From the NCBI GenBank assembly GCA_947627275.1, contig CANQVK010000011.1:18865-82864 (forward strand): a stretch of DNA of 64,000 nt, read 5' to 3'. Of this stretch, positions 24,394 through 62,395 are shown piece by piece (the first letter of the stretch is position 1; every line of letters starts with the position of its first letter). The notes under the pieces were generated by a model, which saw nothing but the letters and a program-made list of their open reading frames with translations, was not told where the DNA came from and searched no databases. Both the position numbers and the translations under genes were made by a program. The stretch is from an uncultured Ruminococcus sp. Its GTDB lineage: Bacteria; Bacillota; Clostridia; Oscillospirales; Ruminococcaceae.

Positions 24394-24554
24394 TATACTC
24401 GCCGCTATTACAAAATGTCCAAAGAATGCTTAACAGAAAATTCGTATGTCAAGGAAGATGACGAAAGCATACTTGTTGTATGGTGAGGAAGATGACGCAG
24501 ACAGACGGATTTTATGTCTGCATTACTGGATATTTTGTAATAGCGGCGAGTATA
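24394..24554 (+). repeat. Dispersed hairpin element, type 1, full copy A
   Basis: 161 bp between mraZ and rsmH. The ends are 28-bp inverted repeats beginning TATACTCGCCGCTATT with one mismatch that would be a G-U pair in RNA. Pairing continues inward imperfectly (AATGC/GCATT, then ACAGAAAATTCGT against ACGGATTTTATGT). The apex holds a small CATAC/GTATG hairpin flanked by two copies of GGAAGATGACG (24453-24463 and 24487-24497). The motif-bearing strand is plus, opposite to the dcw transcript. No open frame is inside. Copy B at 46160 is nearly identical. Confidence 0.9.
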
Positions 24555-32009: not shown

Positions 32010-32132
32010 TATACTCGCCGCTACTGCAAAGAACTTTAAAAGCCGTACACGGCACGCTTACTGTGCTGCATACGGCTTTGTGACCTTCATATACTCGCCT
32101 ATATTGGACGTTTTGCAATAGAGGCGAGTATA
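32010..32132. repeat. Dispersed hairpin element, variant copy G
   Basis: 123 bp between the desulfurase and cysK genes. The left end TATACTCGCCGCTACTGCAAA and the right end are inverted copies with three mismatches in about 20 bp. Inside is an AAAGCCGTA/TACGGCTTT hairpin with GGCAC/GTGCT (32038-32080), unlike copies A and B, and a second internal TATACTCGCC at 32090 that pairs with the right end. It lies downstream of cysK, where it may serve as a terminator. Confidence 0.75.
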
Positions 32133-46159: not shown

Positions 46160-46320
46160 TATACTCGCCGCTATTGCAAAATGTCCAAAGAATGCTGAAC
46201 AGAAAATTCGTATGTCAAGGAAGATGACGAAAGCATACTTGTCGTATGGTGAGGAAGATGACGCAGGCAGACGGATTTTATGTCAGTGTTACTGGATATT
46301 TTGTAATAGCGGCGAGTATA
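46160..46320 (+). repeat. Dispersed hairpin element, type 1, full copy B
   Basis: 161 bp, nearly identical to copy A at 24394 (same length, ends, GGAAGATGACG pair and CATAC/GTATG apex). It lies between convergent genes, directly followed by a terminator. Confidence 0.9.
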
Positions 46321-53378: not shown

Positions 53379-53425
53379 TATACTCGCCGCTATTACAAAA
53401 TCACTATCCAATAGCGGCGAGTATA
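53379..53425. repeat. Dispersed hairpin element, minimal copy F
   Basis: 47 bp: TATACTCGCCGCTATT and AATAGCGGCGAGTATA form a perfect 16-bp stem with a 15-base loop. Only the ends of the type 1 element remain. It lies between addB and the GH25 gene, 6 bases from the GH25 stop. Confidence 0.85.
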
Positions 53426-55512: not shown

Positions 55513-55638
55513 TATACTCACCGCTATTGCAAAATGTCCAAAGAAAGCTGAACAGAAAATTTGTATGTCAAGGAAGATGACGCAGACAGACGGATTTTAT
55601 GTCGGCGTTACTGGATATTTTGCAATAGCGGCGAGTAT
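55513..55638 (+). repeat. Dispersed hairpin element, type 1, deletion copy C
   Basis: 126 bp with the same ends and stem sequences as copies A and B, but 35 bp shorter. The missing part is exactly one GGAAGATGACG copy plus the apical hairpin, as expected from deletion between the direct repeats. It ends 15 bases before the rluA-type start, so it lies in or at the leader of that gene. Confidence 0.88.
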
Positions 55639-55653
55639 GTACAGAGGTGAAAA

Positions 55654-56610
55654 ATGAAGGAATTTAAGATCACACAGAATGACAGCGGTCAGAGAATAGA
55701 TAAATTCTTGCAGAAGGCTATGCCCGAGCTTCCTAAGAGCATGATGTACCGACTTATCCGCAAAAAAGAAATAAAAATAAACGGCAGACGCTGCGAGAAC
55801 TCCGCAAAACTTGCCGAGGGAGATATTGTTCGTGTATACGTCAAGGACGAGGTTTCAGCTCCGAAACGGCACGACATGAGCTTTATCAATGCCGATACGG
55901 AGTTGAACGCGATCTATGAGGACGACAACATCATTATCGTGTTCAAGCCTGTCGGACTCGACTCGCACAGCAACGGCGAAAATAACCCTGATACGCTGAT
56001 AAACCGAATAAAGCTCTATCTTTACCGTAAGGGGGAATATGCTCCCGACACCGAGAATACTTTCTCCCCCGCTCTTTGCAGCAGGCTTGACAGAAATACT
56101 TCGGGACTTGTGACCGCGGCAAAAAATGCGGCTTCCCTTCGGGAACTGAACGAGGGTATCAGGTCGGGCTGCGTACATAAAATTTACCGCTGTATCGTTG
56201 TCGGAAAACCTGCAAGGTCGGAGGACATACTAACCGCCTACCATTTCAGGGACGAGGGCAGAAATATGGTGCGTATCAGCACAGACCCCAAAGAAGGATT
56301 CAGGCAGATACGCACGGGCTATAAGCTTTTAGCCGAAAATTCGGGGCTTTCTCTACTGGAAATACGGCTTTATACGGGACGTACTCACCAGATAAGGGCG
56401 CACCTTGCGCATATTGGTCTGCCTATCCTCGGAGACGGAAAGTACGGAAATATCGCCGCAAACAAACGCTTCGGCATTTTCCGTCAGCAGCTTTGCGCAT
56501 ACGAGCTGGAATTTGATTTTCCCGAAAGCTCACCGCTCCGCTACCTAAGCAAAATTCACCCCAAGTCTCCCGAAAACTTACAGGTAACCTCTAAAATTGA
56601 TTTTAAATGA
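55654..56610 (+). CDS. RluA family pseudouridine synthase
   Basis: The 318-residue protein has an N-terminal S4 RNA-binding domain (about 12-60) and a catalytic domain with FKPVGLDSH, SRLDRNTSG (catalytic Asp146) and the C-terminal TGRTHQIRAHLAHIGLPILGD. It isomerises uridines in rRNA or tRNA; the target is not deducible. The first residue of the catalytic motif is Ser rather than the usual His. AGAGGTG precedes the ATG. Confidence 0.93.
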   Translation: MKEFKITQNDSGQRIDKFLQKAMPELPKSMMYRLIRKKEIKINGRRCENSAKLAEGDIVRVYVKDEVSAPKRHDMSFINADTELNAIYEDDNIIIVFKPVGLDSHSNGENNPDTLINRIKLYLYRKGEYAPDTENTFSPALCSRLDRNTSGLVTAAKNAASLRELNEGIRSGCVHKIYRCIVVGKPARSEDILTAYHFRDEGRNMVRISTDPKEGFRQIRTGYKLLAENSGLSLLEIRLYTGRTHQIRAHLAHIGLPILGDGKYGNIAANKRFGIFRQQLCAYELEFDFPESSPLRYLSKIHPKSPENLQVTSKIDFK

Positions 56611-56611
56611 C

Positions 56612-56640
56612 TTGACTTTTTCGCATTAAAGTAGTATAAT
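56612..56640 (+). promoter_or_regulatory. tyrA promoter
   Basis: TTGACT (56612-56617), 17 bases, TATAAT (56635-56640). The predicted start near 56647 lies 17 bases before element D. Confidence 0.75.
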
Positions 56641-56663: not shown

Positions 56664-56821
56664 TAGACCTCCTCGGAAACTAAGGTGCAGCCGTATGACT
56701 AAAGATTTTGTCATATGGCAAGGCAGACGATGAAAGCGGGCTAACGCCCTCTGAGGAGGATAACGCAGCCACATGGCAAAAGATTTGACAGACGGTGTGC
56801 GTTAGTTTCCGAGGAGGTCTA
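56664..56821 (+). repeat. Dispersed hairpin element, divergent copy D, in the tyrA leader
   Basis: 158 bp with perfect inverted ends TAGACCTCCTCGGAAACTAA / TTAGTTTCCGAGGAGGTCTA. Pairing continues imperfectly to GTCATATGGC against GCCACATGGC. The apex is GGGC-TAAC-GCCC flanked by CAAGGCAGACGATGAAAGC (56719-56737) and GAGGAGGATAACGCAG (56753-56768). These match the flanks in copies A and B although the stems differ completely. It fills the tyrA leader up to the ribosome site. Confidence 0.8.
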
Positions 56822-56841: not shown

Positions 56842-57693
56842 ATGAAAATTTTAGTAGTCGGACTGGGTCTTATCGGAGGCTCTATCTGCAAAGCTCTGAA
56901 AAAATACACCTCCCATTTAGTCACAGGCTGCGATCTGAACCACGATATTGAATTTTCAGCCCTGAGAGATGTTGCTATCGACAAGGAATTTGACGGCAGT
57001 TTCAGCGGTTTCGATTTGATCATAGTCTCTCTTTTTCCCGACGCTGCGGAAAGCTATCTGCGTGAAAATATCGGTAAATTCGATAAAAACACCCTGATAA
57101 CCGACGTTTGCGGCATTAAGGGCAGTTTCTCCCTGAGAGTGAAAAAAATGGCTGAGGACTGCGGACTTCGTTATGTCGGCATACATCCCATGGCTGGAAA
57201 GGAGTTCGGCGGCTATCATAACAGCAGCGCAGATCTGTTCCAGAAAGCAAACTTTATAATCGCGCCTTTTGAAAACAGCAGAAACGAGGACGTCGATCTG
57301 TTGACGAACCTTGCAAAAGAGATCGGCGCAGGAAAAATCGTGGTAACTACCCCCGAAAACCACGACAAAATGATAGCATACACTTCACAGCTTGCTCATA
57401 TCGTGTCCTCCGCTTACGTAAAAAGTCCCGAGCTTGACTTGGAATGCGGTTTCAGCGGCGGCAGTTTTCAGGATATGACAAGAATTGCCACTATGAACGA
57501 AAAAATGTGGACCGATCTGTTTATGCAGAACAGAGAAAATCTAATGTATGAGCTTGAGATCCTTATTGAAAATTTAACAAAATATAATACGGCTCTGAAA
57601 AATGCCGACAGCGAAGAAATGCTCAGGCTTATCGCCGAGGGCAGACAGCTTAAGGAGGAAAATCTCCGCCACCGTCAGGGACAGCCGAATTAA
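56842..57693 (+). CDS. tyrA: Prephenate dehydrogenase TyrA
   Basis: The 283-residue protein starts with a Rossmann NAD loop (VVGLGLIGGSICKAL) and has the prephenate-site blocks DVCGIKGSF, GIHPMAGKEFGGY and FSGGSFQDMTRIA. It makes 4-hydroxyphenylpyruvate for tyrosine. There is no ACT or chorismate mutase domain. Lone tyrA here is not next to other aro genes. AAAAGGATG precedes the start. No T-box signature is in the leader; element D occupies it. Confidence 0.93.
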   Translation: MKILVVGLGLIGGSICKALKKYTSHLVTGCDLNHDIEFSALRDVAIDKEFDGSFSGFDLIIVSLFPDAAESYLRENIGKFDKNTLITDVCGIKGSFSLRVKKMAEDCGLRYVGIHPMAGKEFGGYHNSSADLFQKANFIIAPFENSRNEDVDLLTNLAKEIGAGKIVVTTPENHDKMIAYTSQLAHIVSSAYVKSPELDLECGFSGGSFQDMTRIATMNEKMWTDLFMQNRENLMYELEILIENLTKYNTALKNADSEEMLRLIAEGRQLKEENLRHRQGQPN

Positions 57694-57770: not shown

Positions 57771-59681
57771 TCATATAAACATAGTGCTGATATTATGCTC
57801 ACGGGCGTAGCGTTCCGCCTTTTTACGGTTGACCTGCTTCAAGATACGCAGAATAAGCTTCTGCCCTTTTTTTACCGTTGTCTGATTGTAGTCAACGCCC
57901 TCAAATTCAGCAATCTTCACGTTATAAATATTCTCGCAGCCGCAGAACGCGTCATCGCGGACATCCTTTGTCTGAACGCTGACACGAACGTCCGTAAGCT
58001 TGCCGCAGCCGTAAAACGCCCAACTGCCGATAGTTTTTACAGAAGGAGGGATCGTGATCTCCTCCAGCGATCTGCACCACGAAAAGGCGCTTTCGCCGAT
58101 GCTTGTAACGGAATCTGCAATAACGATCTTCTTTAAGCCGTAACATTCGGAAAACGCCGCATTTCCGATAGCTTCCACAGAATGAGAAATAATTACACGA
58201 TTAAGATTGCGGCAGGCAAAAAAGCTTAAATCGTTTATCTTTTTTATTTGTCCCGGGAAAATCAGCTTGCGTATGGAACTGCACCTGCCAAAAGCTCCCT
58301 TGCCTATGTTTTTAAGAGAATTAGGAAAATCAAGCTCTTTAAGCCGCTGACACTTCAAGAAAGCGTTTTCACCTATAGACTCTAAATTTCTCGAAAAAAC
58401 AATTTCCTCCAAATTAACGCAGTGGGCGAAAGCAAAGCGGTCAACAGTCTTTACGCTGTCGGACATAATAATTGTTTTTGCCGATTTATTGCCTCTGAAC
58501 GCATATTTCCCGATAGAAACTATCGTATCGGGGATATGTATTACTTCGTTAGTGCCAATATATTTTATAAGCAGAGTTCCGTTTTTGCCAAGAGCCATGT
58601 TGTTAATATCGTCGATCTCAACACTTTCAACCTGCTCAATGTCCTTATCACTGTATAATTCGTCAATTTTCTCACGGGACATTGCCTTAGCGGACGTTTT
58701 TTTCACCGTTTCGGGTTCAGCTTTCACCGGCTGAGCAGTCTCGTGTATCTCTCTGAATGCGTCCCTTGAAAGAACGATCTCGGGCATTTCTTTTTTCTTG
58801 GCTTTTGCAGGCTTTGGCGCGTCTGAGATCACATGAGCTTCATTCGGCTTTTTTTCGGTAATTTTCTCCGATTTTGCTGTTTCTTGTGCAGTTGAAAGAG
58901 AACTCTTTTCAACGCCGTCCGAAGATTTTTTTACATTTATTTCCTCAATAAAAATTGTTTTCGGCTTCTCCTCTGCCTTTTTCTCGGGCTTCGGGGACTC
59001 CTTGGGCTTTTCCTCCGCCTTTTTCTCGGGCTTCGAGGACTCCTTTGGCTTCTCCTCTGCCTTTTTCTCAGGCTTTGAGGACTCCTTTGGCTTCTCCTCC
59101 GCCTTTTTTTCAGGCTTCGGAGACTCCTTGGTCTTCTCCTCCGCCTTTTTCTCGGGCTTCGGAGACTCCTTGGTCTTCTCCTCCGCCTTTTTCTCGGGCA
59201 TCGGGGACTCCTTGGGCTTTTCCTCCGCCTTTTTCTCGGGCTTCGGGGACTCCTTGGGTTTCTTCTCCGCCTCTTTCTTGGGCTTCGGAAACTCCTTGGG
59301 CTTCTCCTCCGCCTTTTTCTCGGACTTCGGGGACTTCTTGGGTTTCTCCTCCGCCTTTTTCTCGGGCATCGGGGACTCCTTGGGCTTTTCCTCCGCCTTT
59401 TTCTCGGGCTTCGGGGACTCCTTTGGCTTCTCCTCCGCCTTTTTCTCGGGCTTCGGAGACTCCTTGGGCTTTTCCTCCGCCTTTTTCTCAGACTTCGGGG
59501 ATTCATTAGGCTTCTCCTCCGCATTTTTCTTGGACTTCGGGGACTCTTTTGGCTTCTCCTCCGCCTTTTCAGCAACTTTATCATGCTCTACAAGCGCAGA
59601 AGAAATTTTTACATCCTTTTCCTCAGCAGCAAAATCCGCTTTAGAGGCTTTGCGAACTCTTACTATCTTAGTTACTTTCAT
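57771..59681 (-). CDS. Lys/Glu/Pro-repeat protein with BspA-type leucine-rich repeats
   Basis: The 636-residue protein begins without a signal peptide (MKVTKIVRVRKASKADF). Residues 39-241 are 14 full copies and one partial copy of KAEEKPKESPKPEK. Residues about 360-600 are BspA-type (LRR_5) repeats such as IVSIGKYAFRGNKSAKTIIM and LESIGENAFLKCQRLKEL. The C-terminus is basic (GQKLILRILKQVNRKKAERYA). LRR_5 proteins are usually secreted or surface-bound, so a cytoplasmic form with a charged repeat stalk is unusual. No function can be assigned. Confidence 0.85.
   Translation of the reverse strand: MKVTKIVRVRKASKADFAAEEKDVKISSALVEHDKVAEKAEEKPKESPKSKKNAEEKPNESPKSEKKAEEKPKESPKPEKKAEEKPKESPKPEKKAEEKPKESPMPEKKAEEKPKKSPKSEKKAEEKPKEFPKPKKEAEKKPKESPKPEKKAEEKPKESPMPEKKAEEKTKESPKPEKKAEEKTKESPKPEKKAEEKPKESSKPEKKAEEKPKESSKPEKKAEEKPKESPKPEKKAEEKPKTIFIEEINVKKSSDGVEKSSLSTAQETAKSEKITEKKPNEAHVISDAPKPAKAKKKEMPEIVLSRDAFREIHETAQPVKAEPETVKKTSAKAMSREKIDELYSDKDIEQVESVEIDDINNMALGKNGTLLIKYIGTNEVIHIPDTIVSIGKYAFRGNKSAKTIIMSDSVKTVDRFAFAHCVNLEEIVFSRNLESIGENAFLKCQRLKELDFPNSLKNIGKGAFGRCSSIRKLIFPGQIKKINDLSFFACRNLNRVIISHSVEAIGNAAFSECYGLKKIVIADSVTSIGESAFSWCRSLEEITIPPSVKTIGSWAFYGCGKLTDVRVSVQTKDVRDDAFCGCENIYNVKIAEFEGVDYNQTTVKKGQKLILRILKQVNRKKAERYAREHNISTMFI
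58959..59567 (-). repeat. 42-bp tandem coding repeats
   Basis: About 14.5 units of 42 bp encode KAEEKPKESPKPEK. Units differ by scattered substitutions, mostly at P/T, P/M and P/S sites and in silent positions, which suggests repeated unequal exchange. The opposite strand is also open through the repeat, but that is a codon-pattern effect. Confidence 0.92.
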
Positions 59682-62379: not shown

Positions 62380-62395
62380 ATACTCGCCGCTATTG
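62380..62395 (+). repeat. Single end of a type 1 hairpin element (copy H)
   Basis: TATACTCGCCGCTATT is present once, with no matching inverted end downstream. Its final TT is the start of the -35 box TTGACA of the tetR promoter. Confidence 0.6.

Follow-up and report, generated by a model that had tools for sequence, protein, structure and literature searches.

A dispersed palindromic element with a conserved core and many kinds of ends lies upstream of tyrA in an uncultured Ruminococcus sp.

Introduction

In a 64,000-nt stretch of DNA from an uncultured Ruminococcus sp. (assembly GCA_947627275.1, contig CANQVK010000011.1, positions 18,865 to 82,864; hereafter the window), a palindrome fills most of the interval between a promoter-like site and tyrA, which raises the question of whether it belongs to the gene as a leader RNA or came there as a mobile element. 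A preliminary description, made from the sequence alone, had considered both an undescribed class of leader RNA and a MITE with a conserved functional core. That observation is right, and the phenomenon proved larger than was seen there.

Results

The palindrome upstream of tyrA

The palindrome was said to sit between the promoter-like site and the AAGG resembling a ribosome site of tyrA, and the coordinates bear this out (Table 1). Its 20-nt ends are perfect (TAGACCTCCTCGGAAACTAA / TTAGTTTCCGAGGAGGTCTA), and together with its flanks it has a predicted folding energy of -78.9 kcal/mol, compared with a shuffle mean of -41.0 (sd 3.85, n=200; z -9.85). The tyrA product is identified as a prephenate dehydrogenase by PF02153 and PF20463, and a site resembling TTGACT-17-TATAAT, judged by eye, also precedes tyrA in relatives. 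Neither by eye nor by model was an element of F1, the family to which the palindrome belongs, found in the tyrA leader of any of the 17 genus relatives compared; one such leader (L294) gave a weak match on the opposite strand (E 0.011).

Table 1. Positions of the element upstream of tyrA, its parts, its neighbours and its relatives in the window
Feature	Position	Strand	Remarks
FA copy (A)	24394..24554	+	other ends, same core
FA copy (B)	46160..46320	+	other ends, same core
Short FA copy	55513..55637	+	minus one core repeat and the apical stem; immediately ahead of pseudouridine synthase gene at 55654
Promoter-like TTGACT-17-TATAAT	56612..56640	+	upstream of the insertion
F1-family element	56664..56821	+ (core, folding strand)	158 bp, with TA at each end
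Left terminal inverted repeat	56664..56683	+	TA + GACCTCCTCGGAAACTAA; 20-nt perfect match to opposite end
Core helix, 5' strand	56719..56735	+	model positions 20-36; pairing register; A56734 is a predicted bulged A
Apical stem	56735..56752	+	loop TAAC at 56742-56745; TGNC in most families
Core helix, 3' strand	56752..56768	+	model positions 53-69; A56767 is a predicted bulged A
Right terminal inverted repeat	56802..56821	-	TA-terminated
tyrA, prephenate dehydrogenase	56842..57693	+	AAGG, ribosome-site-like, at 56827-56830

Copies and ends in the source genome

A BLAST search of the region against its own genome returned 66 matches, among them seven full F1 copies (identity at least 90%) and five relatives (72-80%). 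The FA end family, to which window copies A and B belong, gave 103 matches in that genome. The core motifs recur far more often than chance would give: the pattern GAGGANGATNACGCAG, allowing at most one mismatch, occurs 35 times in the source genome against 0 for the reversed control, at least one of the 35 occurrences (C16:54073) lying outside any such element. As had been noticed at the outset, the ends of the tyrA element are unrelated to the A/B end (TACTCGCCGCTATTRCAAAAT), yet the order CAAGGAAGATGACGAAAGC, small hairpin, GAGGAAGATGACGCAG is common to both. This single core is found in the source genome within several end types, namely F1 TAGACCTCC, FA TACTCGCCGC, FB TACTAAACGC, FD TAGTAATCCTAC and the ends of the element at L082. 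At L051 a left FA arm is joined to a right FB arm within the core, and short forms from which the core is deleted are frequent. Other FA-type ends occur in the window as a pair enclosing a different interior (32012-32130), as a short pair of 43 nt (53381-53423) and as a single left end at 62381, beside a promoter-like site.

Distribution among genomes

A covariance model built from 19 elements of the source genome (R1) matched 42 of 197 genomes of the family, the source genome included, and with a model built from 34 sequences (R2) matches were obtained in 76 of the 391 class genomes, these 76 belonging to 24 families according to the genome labels; the copies per genome are lower bounds, since only 22 (family) and 11 (class) candidates were scored in each. 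Elements in the family genomes mostly measure about 155-168 bp, much like those of the source genome, and carry the core centrally, but their ends differ yet again (TATAGCAATACAAG, TATAGTCGCCC, TACTAAAATC, TACTAATT and more). A scan with a pattern of core letters found at least 119 stretches, and among the 80 listed are stretches from Ruminococcus, Oscillibacter, Lachnospiraceae, Peptococcaceae and a few Actinomycetota such as Arachnia propionica, with the cultured strains Ruminococcus sp. zg-924 and Oscillibacter sp. 1-3 named among the matches; nine of the pattern-scan loci, from Lachnospiraceae, Peptococcaceae and Actinomycetota, are also R2 matches. Pattern matches on viral contigs were set aside, their lengths stepping by three as for coding runs.

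Some elements of genome G487 are about 290 bp long, with ends TACCCTCTATTGACAATG.. and two cores inverted to each other, and similar inverted two-core pairs occur between other ends in G389. Three two-core elements of G389 (L620, L625, L626) have outer ends (GGGGTTCGACTCCCCTGTGCTT) that by eye recall the 3' portion of a tRNA, which may point to another route of integration. Judged by titles and the starts of abstracts, we recognised no description of this element family in the open full-text literature, outside which most subscription papers lie.

Structure of the stem and core

The preliminary description reported different stems that still pair around a conserved core, and compensatory changes in these stems are indeed present, all 14 modelled pairs having changes on both sides among 33 distinct sequences. 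In these 33 sequences 93.0% of the stem cells pair, compared with 60.3% in shuffles and 31-41% in slid registers, a score that leans toward structure because the alignment was fitted to it. With a MAFFT alignment of 19 source-genome copies, from which the structure had itself been drawn, the result was similar (pairing 92.9%; 10 of the 14 pairs).

Folding programs drew the core as an open loop with a few isolated pairs. Core letters were counted in 58 families, 44 from R2 matches and 14 from the pattern scan (the two sets may overlap); positions 32 and 56 are fixed by the pattern in the pattern-scan families, positions 26, 29, 59 and 62 are free, and the alignment model is without the Watson-Crick and G.A pairs of the core. 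Pair 26-62 occurs as all four Watson-Crick types in 53 of the 58 families (AT 22, GC 21, TA 6, CG 4), pair 29-59 as CG in 31, GC in 17 and AT in 2, and pair 32-56 mostly as CG, with GC in 4 and TA in 2, while pair 23-65 is GC in 55 and therefore uninformative on covariation. In the register i+j=88 the four positions are 91% Watson-Crick, compared with 8-34% in the neighbouring registers. These single Watson-Crick pairs are separated by two-step G.A / A.G pairs (24.64, 27.61, 28.60, 30.58, 31.57 and 33.55); the usual alternatives at 25.63 and 34.54 are C.A and A.G. All four core pairs are kept, wobbles allowed, in 47 of 58 families and the apical stem cap C(TGNC)G in 43 of 58; the tyrA copy is in this register too, its pair 32-56 being T.G and its loop TAAC. 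A bulged A is predicted near each end of the core helix (positions 35 and 68), and since the two core strands are direct repeats, the helix would have a pseudo-twofold axis. Thus, of the conserved apical motifs within an internal loop that had been reported, the motifs stand, whereas the 'loop' is best read as a regular predicted helix of covarying Watson-Crick pairs alternating with G.A pairs, which may be sheared or imino.

No Rfam family matched the window at gathering score, relaxed cut-offs gave only weak unrelated matches in the element region, and in 11 loci Rfam found a tRNA and weak matches, none to the element near threshold. An origin of the core from SRP RNA, suggested by an apparent likeness to E. 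coli 4.5S RNA, was considered and rejected: the best score against the SRP RNA of the source genome was 9, which 124 of 300 shuffles equalled or exceeded (mean 8.45, maximum 13).

Folding of one strand

A palindrome kept complementary as double-stranded DNA is expected to have G.T and A.C mismatches in equal numbers, and a folding preference for one strand is not expected of double-stranded DNA elements. On the core strand, however, the arm mismatches of 46 families (144 usable of 155 distinct elements, those near a locus end or with N being dropped) comprise 164 G.T and 49 A.C (p 1e-15), the G.T-rich families outnumbering the A.C-rich ones 37 to 5, with 4 ties. When the 12 nt adjacent to the core are left aside, so that only arm pairs farther out than the modelled helix count, the excess persists (119 vs 43; families 34 to 5, 7 ties), and it is also present in 20 families chosen by core letters alone, which comprise 72 usable elements from the 80 listed loci of at least 119 stretches (59 vs 17; 17 to 1, 2 ties; p 1.4e-6). 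The core strand folds better than the other in 42 of the 46 families and in 18 of the 20. For an F1-like group of ten the consensus of the core strand folds at -70.9 (55 pairs), that of the opposite strand at -53.3 (42 pairs). Folding of the core strand alone appears to be under selection in the spreading lineages, and such strand-specific folding fits the structured RNA or single-stranded DNA recognition element envisaged in the preliminary description.

In the consensus arms of the eight families with at least four copies we counted 26 G.T and 0 A.C, whereas single-copy changes from a Watson-Crick consensus gave 81 G.T and 53 A.C (p 0.019); the two sets of counts differ (Fisher p 1.5e-5), the positions used being not exactly the same. 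This points to source lineages that stay foldable on the core strand and to inserted copies that drift much more freely, and therefore to a role in spreading instead of one for the host at every insertion. Because of the same difference between consensuses and single copies, we infer that the fold matters at the making of new copies and not at each host site, although selection may act on inserted copies as well, since G.T still exceeds A.C within families. Cytosine deamination on one strand is not sufficient alone as the source of the G.T pairs, since within families these come from both C>T (50) and A>G (31), and the A.C pairs from G>A (32) and T>C (21). Correction of imperfect palindromes at the DNA level could create compensatory changes, but not the G.T excess.

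Orientation to genes and to replication

Among elements between tandem genes, 39 are oriented with their neighbours and 36 against them, 29 further elements lie between divergent and 17 between convergent genes; these contexts rest on mechanical ORF calls, and 37 elements overlap an ORF of at least 90 aa, part of which are chance ORFs. The even orientation agrees with spread rather than with a host function at each site. By local G-C skew in 20-kb surroundings, 48 of 70 elements from the source genome and G035, some of which are neighbours, have their core strand on the C-rich strand, and for single hairpins of seven other genomes the figure is 23 of 38, a bias of 23 to 15 that is not significant (p 0.26).

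Insertion and candidate transposases

The elements are short, noncoding, present in many copies and bounded by terminal inverted repeats, as MITEs are, and they have TA target duplications. A gene for an ISAs1-like transposase is split by an F1 copy with TA on either side (L007/L162), and an FB element nested in an FA element is likewise bordered by TA left and right (one site, seen at L048 and L156); at another FB-in-FA site (L155) the right-hand TA is missing. Together with ends resembling those of IS630-type elements, the TA insertions and the nested copy speak for the MITE with a conserved functional core that had been proposed. Short forms without the full core are common, however, so that the core may be dispensable for movement.

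IS630-type (DDE_3) genes are found in 19 of the 197 family genomes and in 8 of the 42 carrier genomes; none was found in the other 34 carriers, which include the source genome. Among 16 IS630 loci scanned for paired ends only L183 (1114 bp) and L192 (1131 bp) have element-like ends, and the ends present at others match no element. The L183 end is identical to that of the L101 element at 24 of 28 bases, and in G035 the end next to a weak DDE_3 remnant (L175; 24.7 bits, under the Pfam cut-off of 28.6) agrees with G035's own elements at 30 of 33. L192 and L169 start with TATACTAAACACC, near the FB end. No autonomous IS630 partner was found for the F1 or FA ends, and some elements have ends of another style (AGAACCTGTCTTCA, GGGYGTGTTGACA). 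IS630 is thus our best guess, indirectly supported by these sequence likenesses, for the mobilising enzyme, and only that because the end likenesses are few, the F1 and FA ends have no partner and other styles of ends exist.

Searches for autonomous copies found none from one-sided ends in 16 stretches of the source genome, none at transposase loci in up to ten or twelve genomes and none from the G487 ends in four genomes. At L163 (G002:C2) an ISAs1-type transposase gene is flanked by two inverted 176-nt copies of an element, 95% complementary and with AGAACCTGTCTTCA ends; it was rejected as a master copy, as it looks like two separate elements beside an insertion sequence. At L171 (G150:C50) an element with GGGYGTGTTGACA-type ends is inside an IS630-type DDE_3 gene.

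Discussion

The copy number, the insertion at TA, the occurrence of one core on many end types, the covariation in stem and core and the G.T excess on one strand are observed. To account for them, we propose, with a probability of roughly 60%, that these are palindromes of about 160 bp with many ends and one core which insert at TA and would be moved as DNA by transposases of the IS630 type, and perhaps others too, supplied in trans; the core strand would have to fold at some step of the making of new copies, and the folded hairpin, with its regular helix of G.A pairs, would be bound by a factor. We are less sure of the nature of the folded strand, for which RNA is the likelier form than single-stranded DNA, because of the long G.A helix, the tolerance of G.U and the conserved tetraloop.

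The strongest competitor, although it is rather unlikely, is that the folded form is strand-specific single-stranded DNA whose hairpin is read by a protein, much as IS200/IS605 or REP hairpins are recognised by HUH transposases and attC sites by integrases. In DNA, too, a G.T mismatch is more favourable than A.C, so that the mismatch counts would fit this explanation, as would the even orientation to genes and the placement of the core on the C-rich strand in 48 of 70 elements from two genomes, a possible replication bias; against it, the bias in seven other genomes is 23 to 15 (p 0.26), and the inverted ends, TA targets and likeness to IS630 ends fit transposition of double-stranded DNA. A superfamily of ordinary IS630-type MITEs, with a middle kept by shared descent and by arm-to-arm correction and a fold without function, would explain the TA insertion, the inverted ends and the nested and core-deleted copies. 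However, the core stays while the ends differ, its pairs covary down to the alternation of C.A and A.G, and the G.T excess is confined to one strand and was reproduced in an independent set, so this explanation is improbable and already disfavoured.

That the element is a leader RNA or attenuator regulating tyrA is very improbable. It does lie between the tyrA promoter and ribosome site with its core in the sense direction, but it is present at this place in 0 of 17 relatives (the weak match at L294 being on the other strand), elements oriented with their tandem neighbours hardly outnumber those against them (39 vs 36), and no Rfam family matches. As none of the 17 relatives examined has the element and gene orientation is even, we do not take it for a tyrA leader RNA, and the undescribed leader class of the preliminary description is not supported. 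The position is most simply explained if the element landed by chance between the promoter and the ribosome site; the hairpin would then lie, in its folding sense, within the tyrA transcript, and any putative effect on tyrA would be incidental.

Among known systems the nearest, by description, are RUP and ERIC. RUP of Streptococcus pneumoniae is a MITE attributed to IS630-Spn1, and like the present elements it is short and noncoding, has inverted ends and TA targets and inserts into the transposase genes of other insertion sequences; it is described with one kind of ends, those of IS630-Spn1 (PMC2229807), whereas here many end types surround one core and one strand is kept foldable. ERIC of enterobacteria is likewise palindromic and of similar size, and is co-transcribed with genes with an orientation-dependent effect on the RNA (PMC2229807), but the consulted part describes no conserved G.A core across different ends, a distinction made by description and not by sequence. 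The inverted two-core elements of G487 and G389 recall a third group. REP/BIME with RAYT, the ends of IS200/IS605 and integron attC are strand-specific hairpins, and BIMEs pair REPs as those elements pair cores, but the inverted transposon ends and TA targets set our elements apart from all three. SINEs such as Alu are structured RNA-like modules that spread with the enzyme of another element. A structured module would here also spread by a borrowed enzyme, although the ends and the TA targets point to a DNA transposase. It is possible, if doubtful, that the elements are the bacterial equivalent of SINEs: a structured RNA module would spread among Clostridia and a few Actinomycetota via a folded single-strand intermediate and repeatedly gain new transposon ends; if so, the RNA core and not the ends would be the lasting unit of inheritance.

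The lasting part of a MITE is usually its ends, and its middle decays. Here it is the middle that lasts, predicted to be a regular helix of G.A pairs, between ends that differ, and the spreading lineages keep one strand foldable. The dependence of small bacterial mobile elements on a folded RNA or single-stranded DNA stage thereby becomes testable. The count of G.T against A.C is a simple sequence test that can be applied to other palindromic elements, and the covariance model now available for this repeat has matches in 76 of 391 Clostridia genomes.

The window also holds tandem repeats of other kinds. Positions 14-133 contain a 24-nt tandem repeat that would be Gly/Asp-rich if in frame (GGCGGCGGTGCTGTCGATCCTAAC). 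At 58834-59673 there are at least 14 tandem, in-register copies of a 42-nt unit. Mechanical ORFs cover them on either strand, among these one of 636 aa at 57771-59681 on the minus strand, and this region likely encodes a repeat protein.
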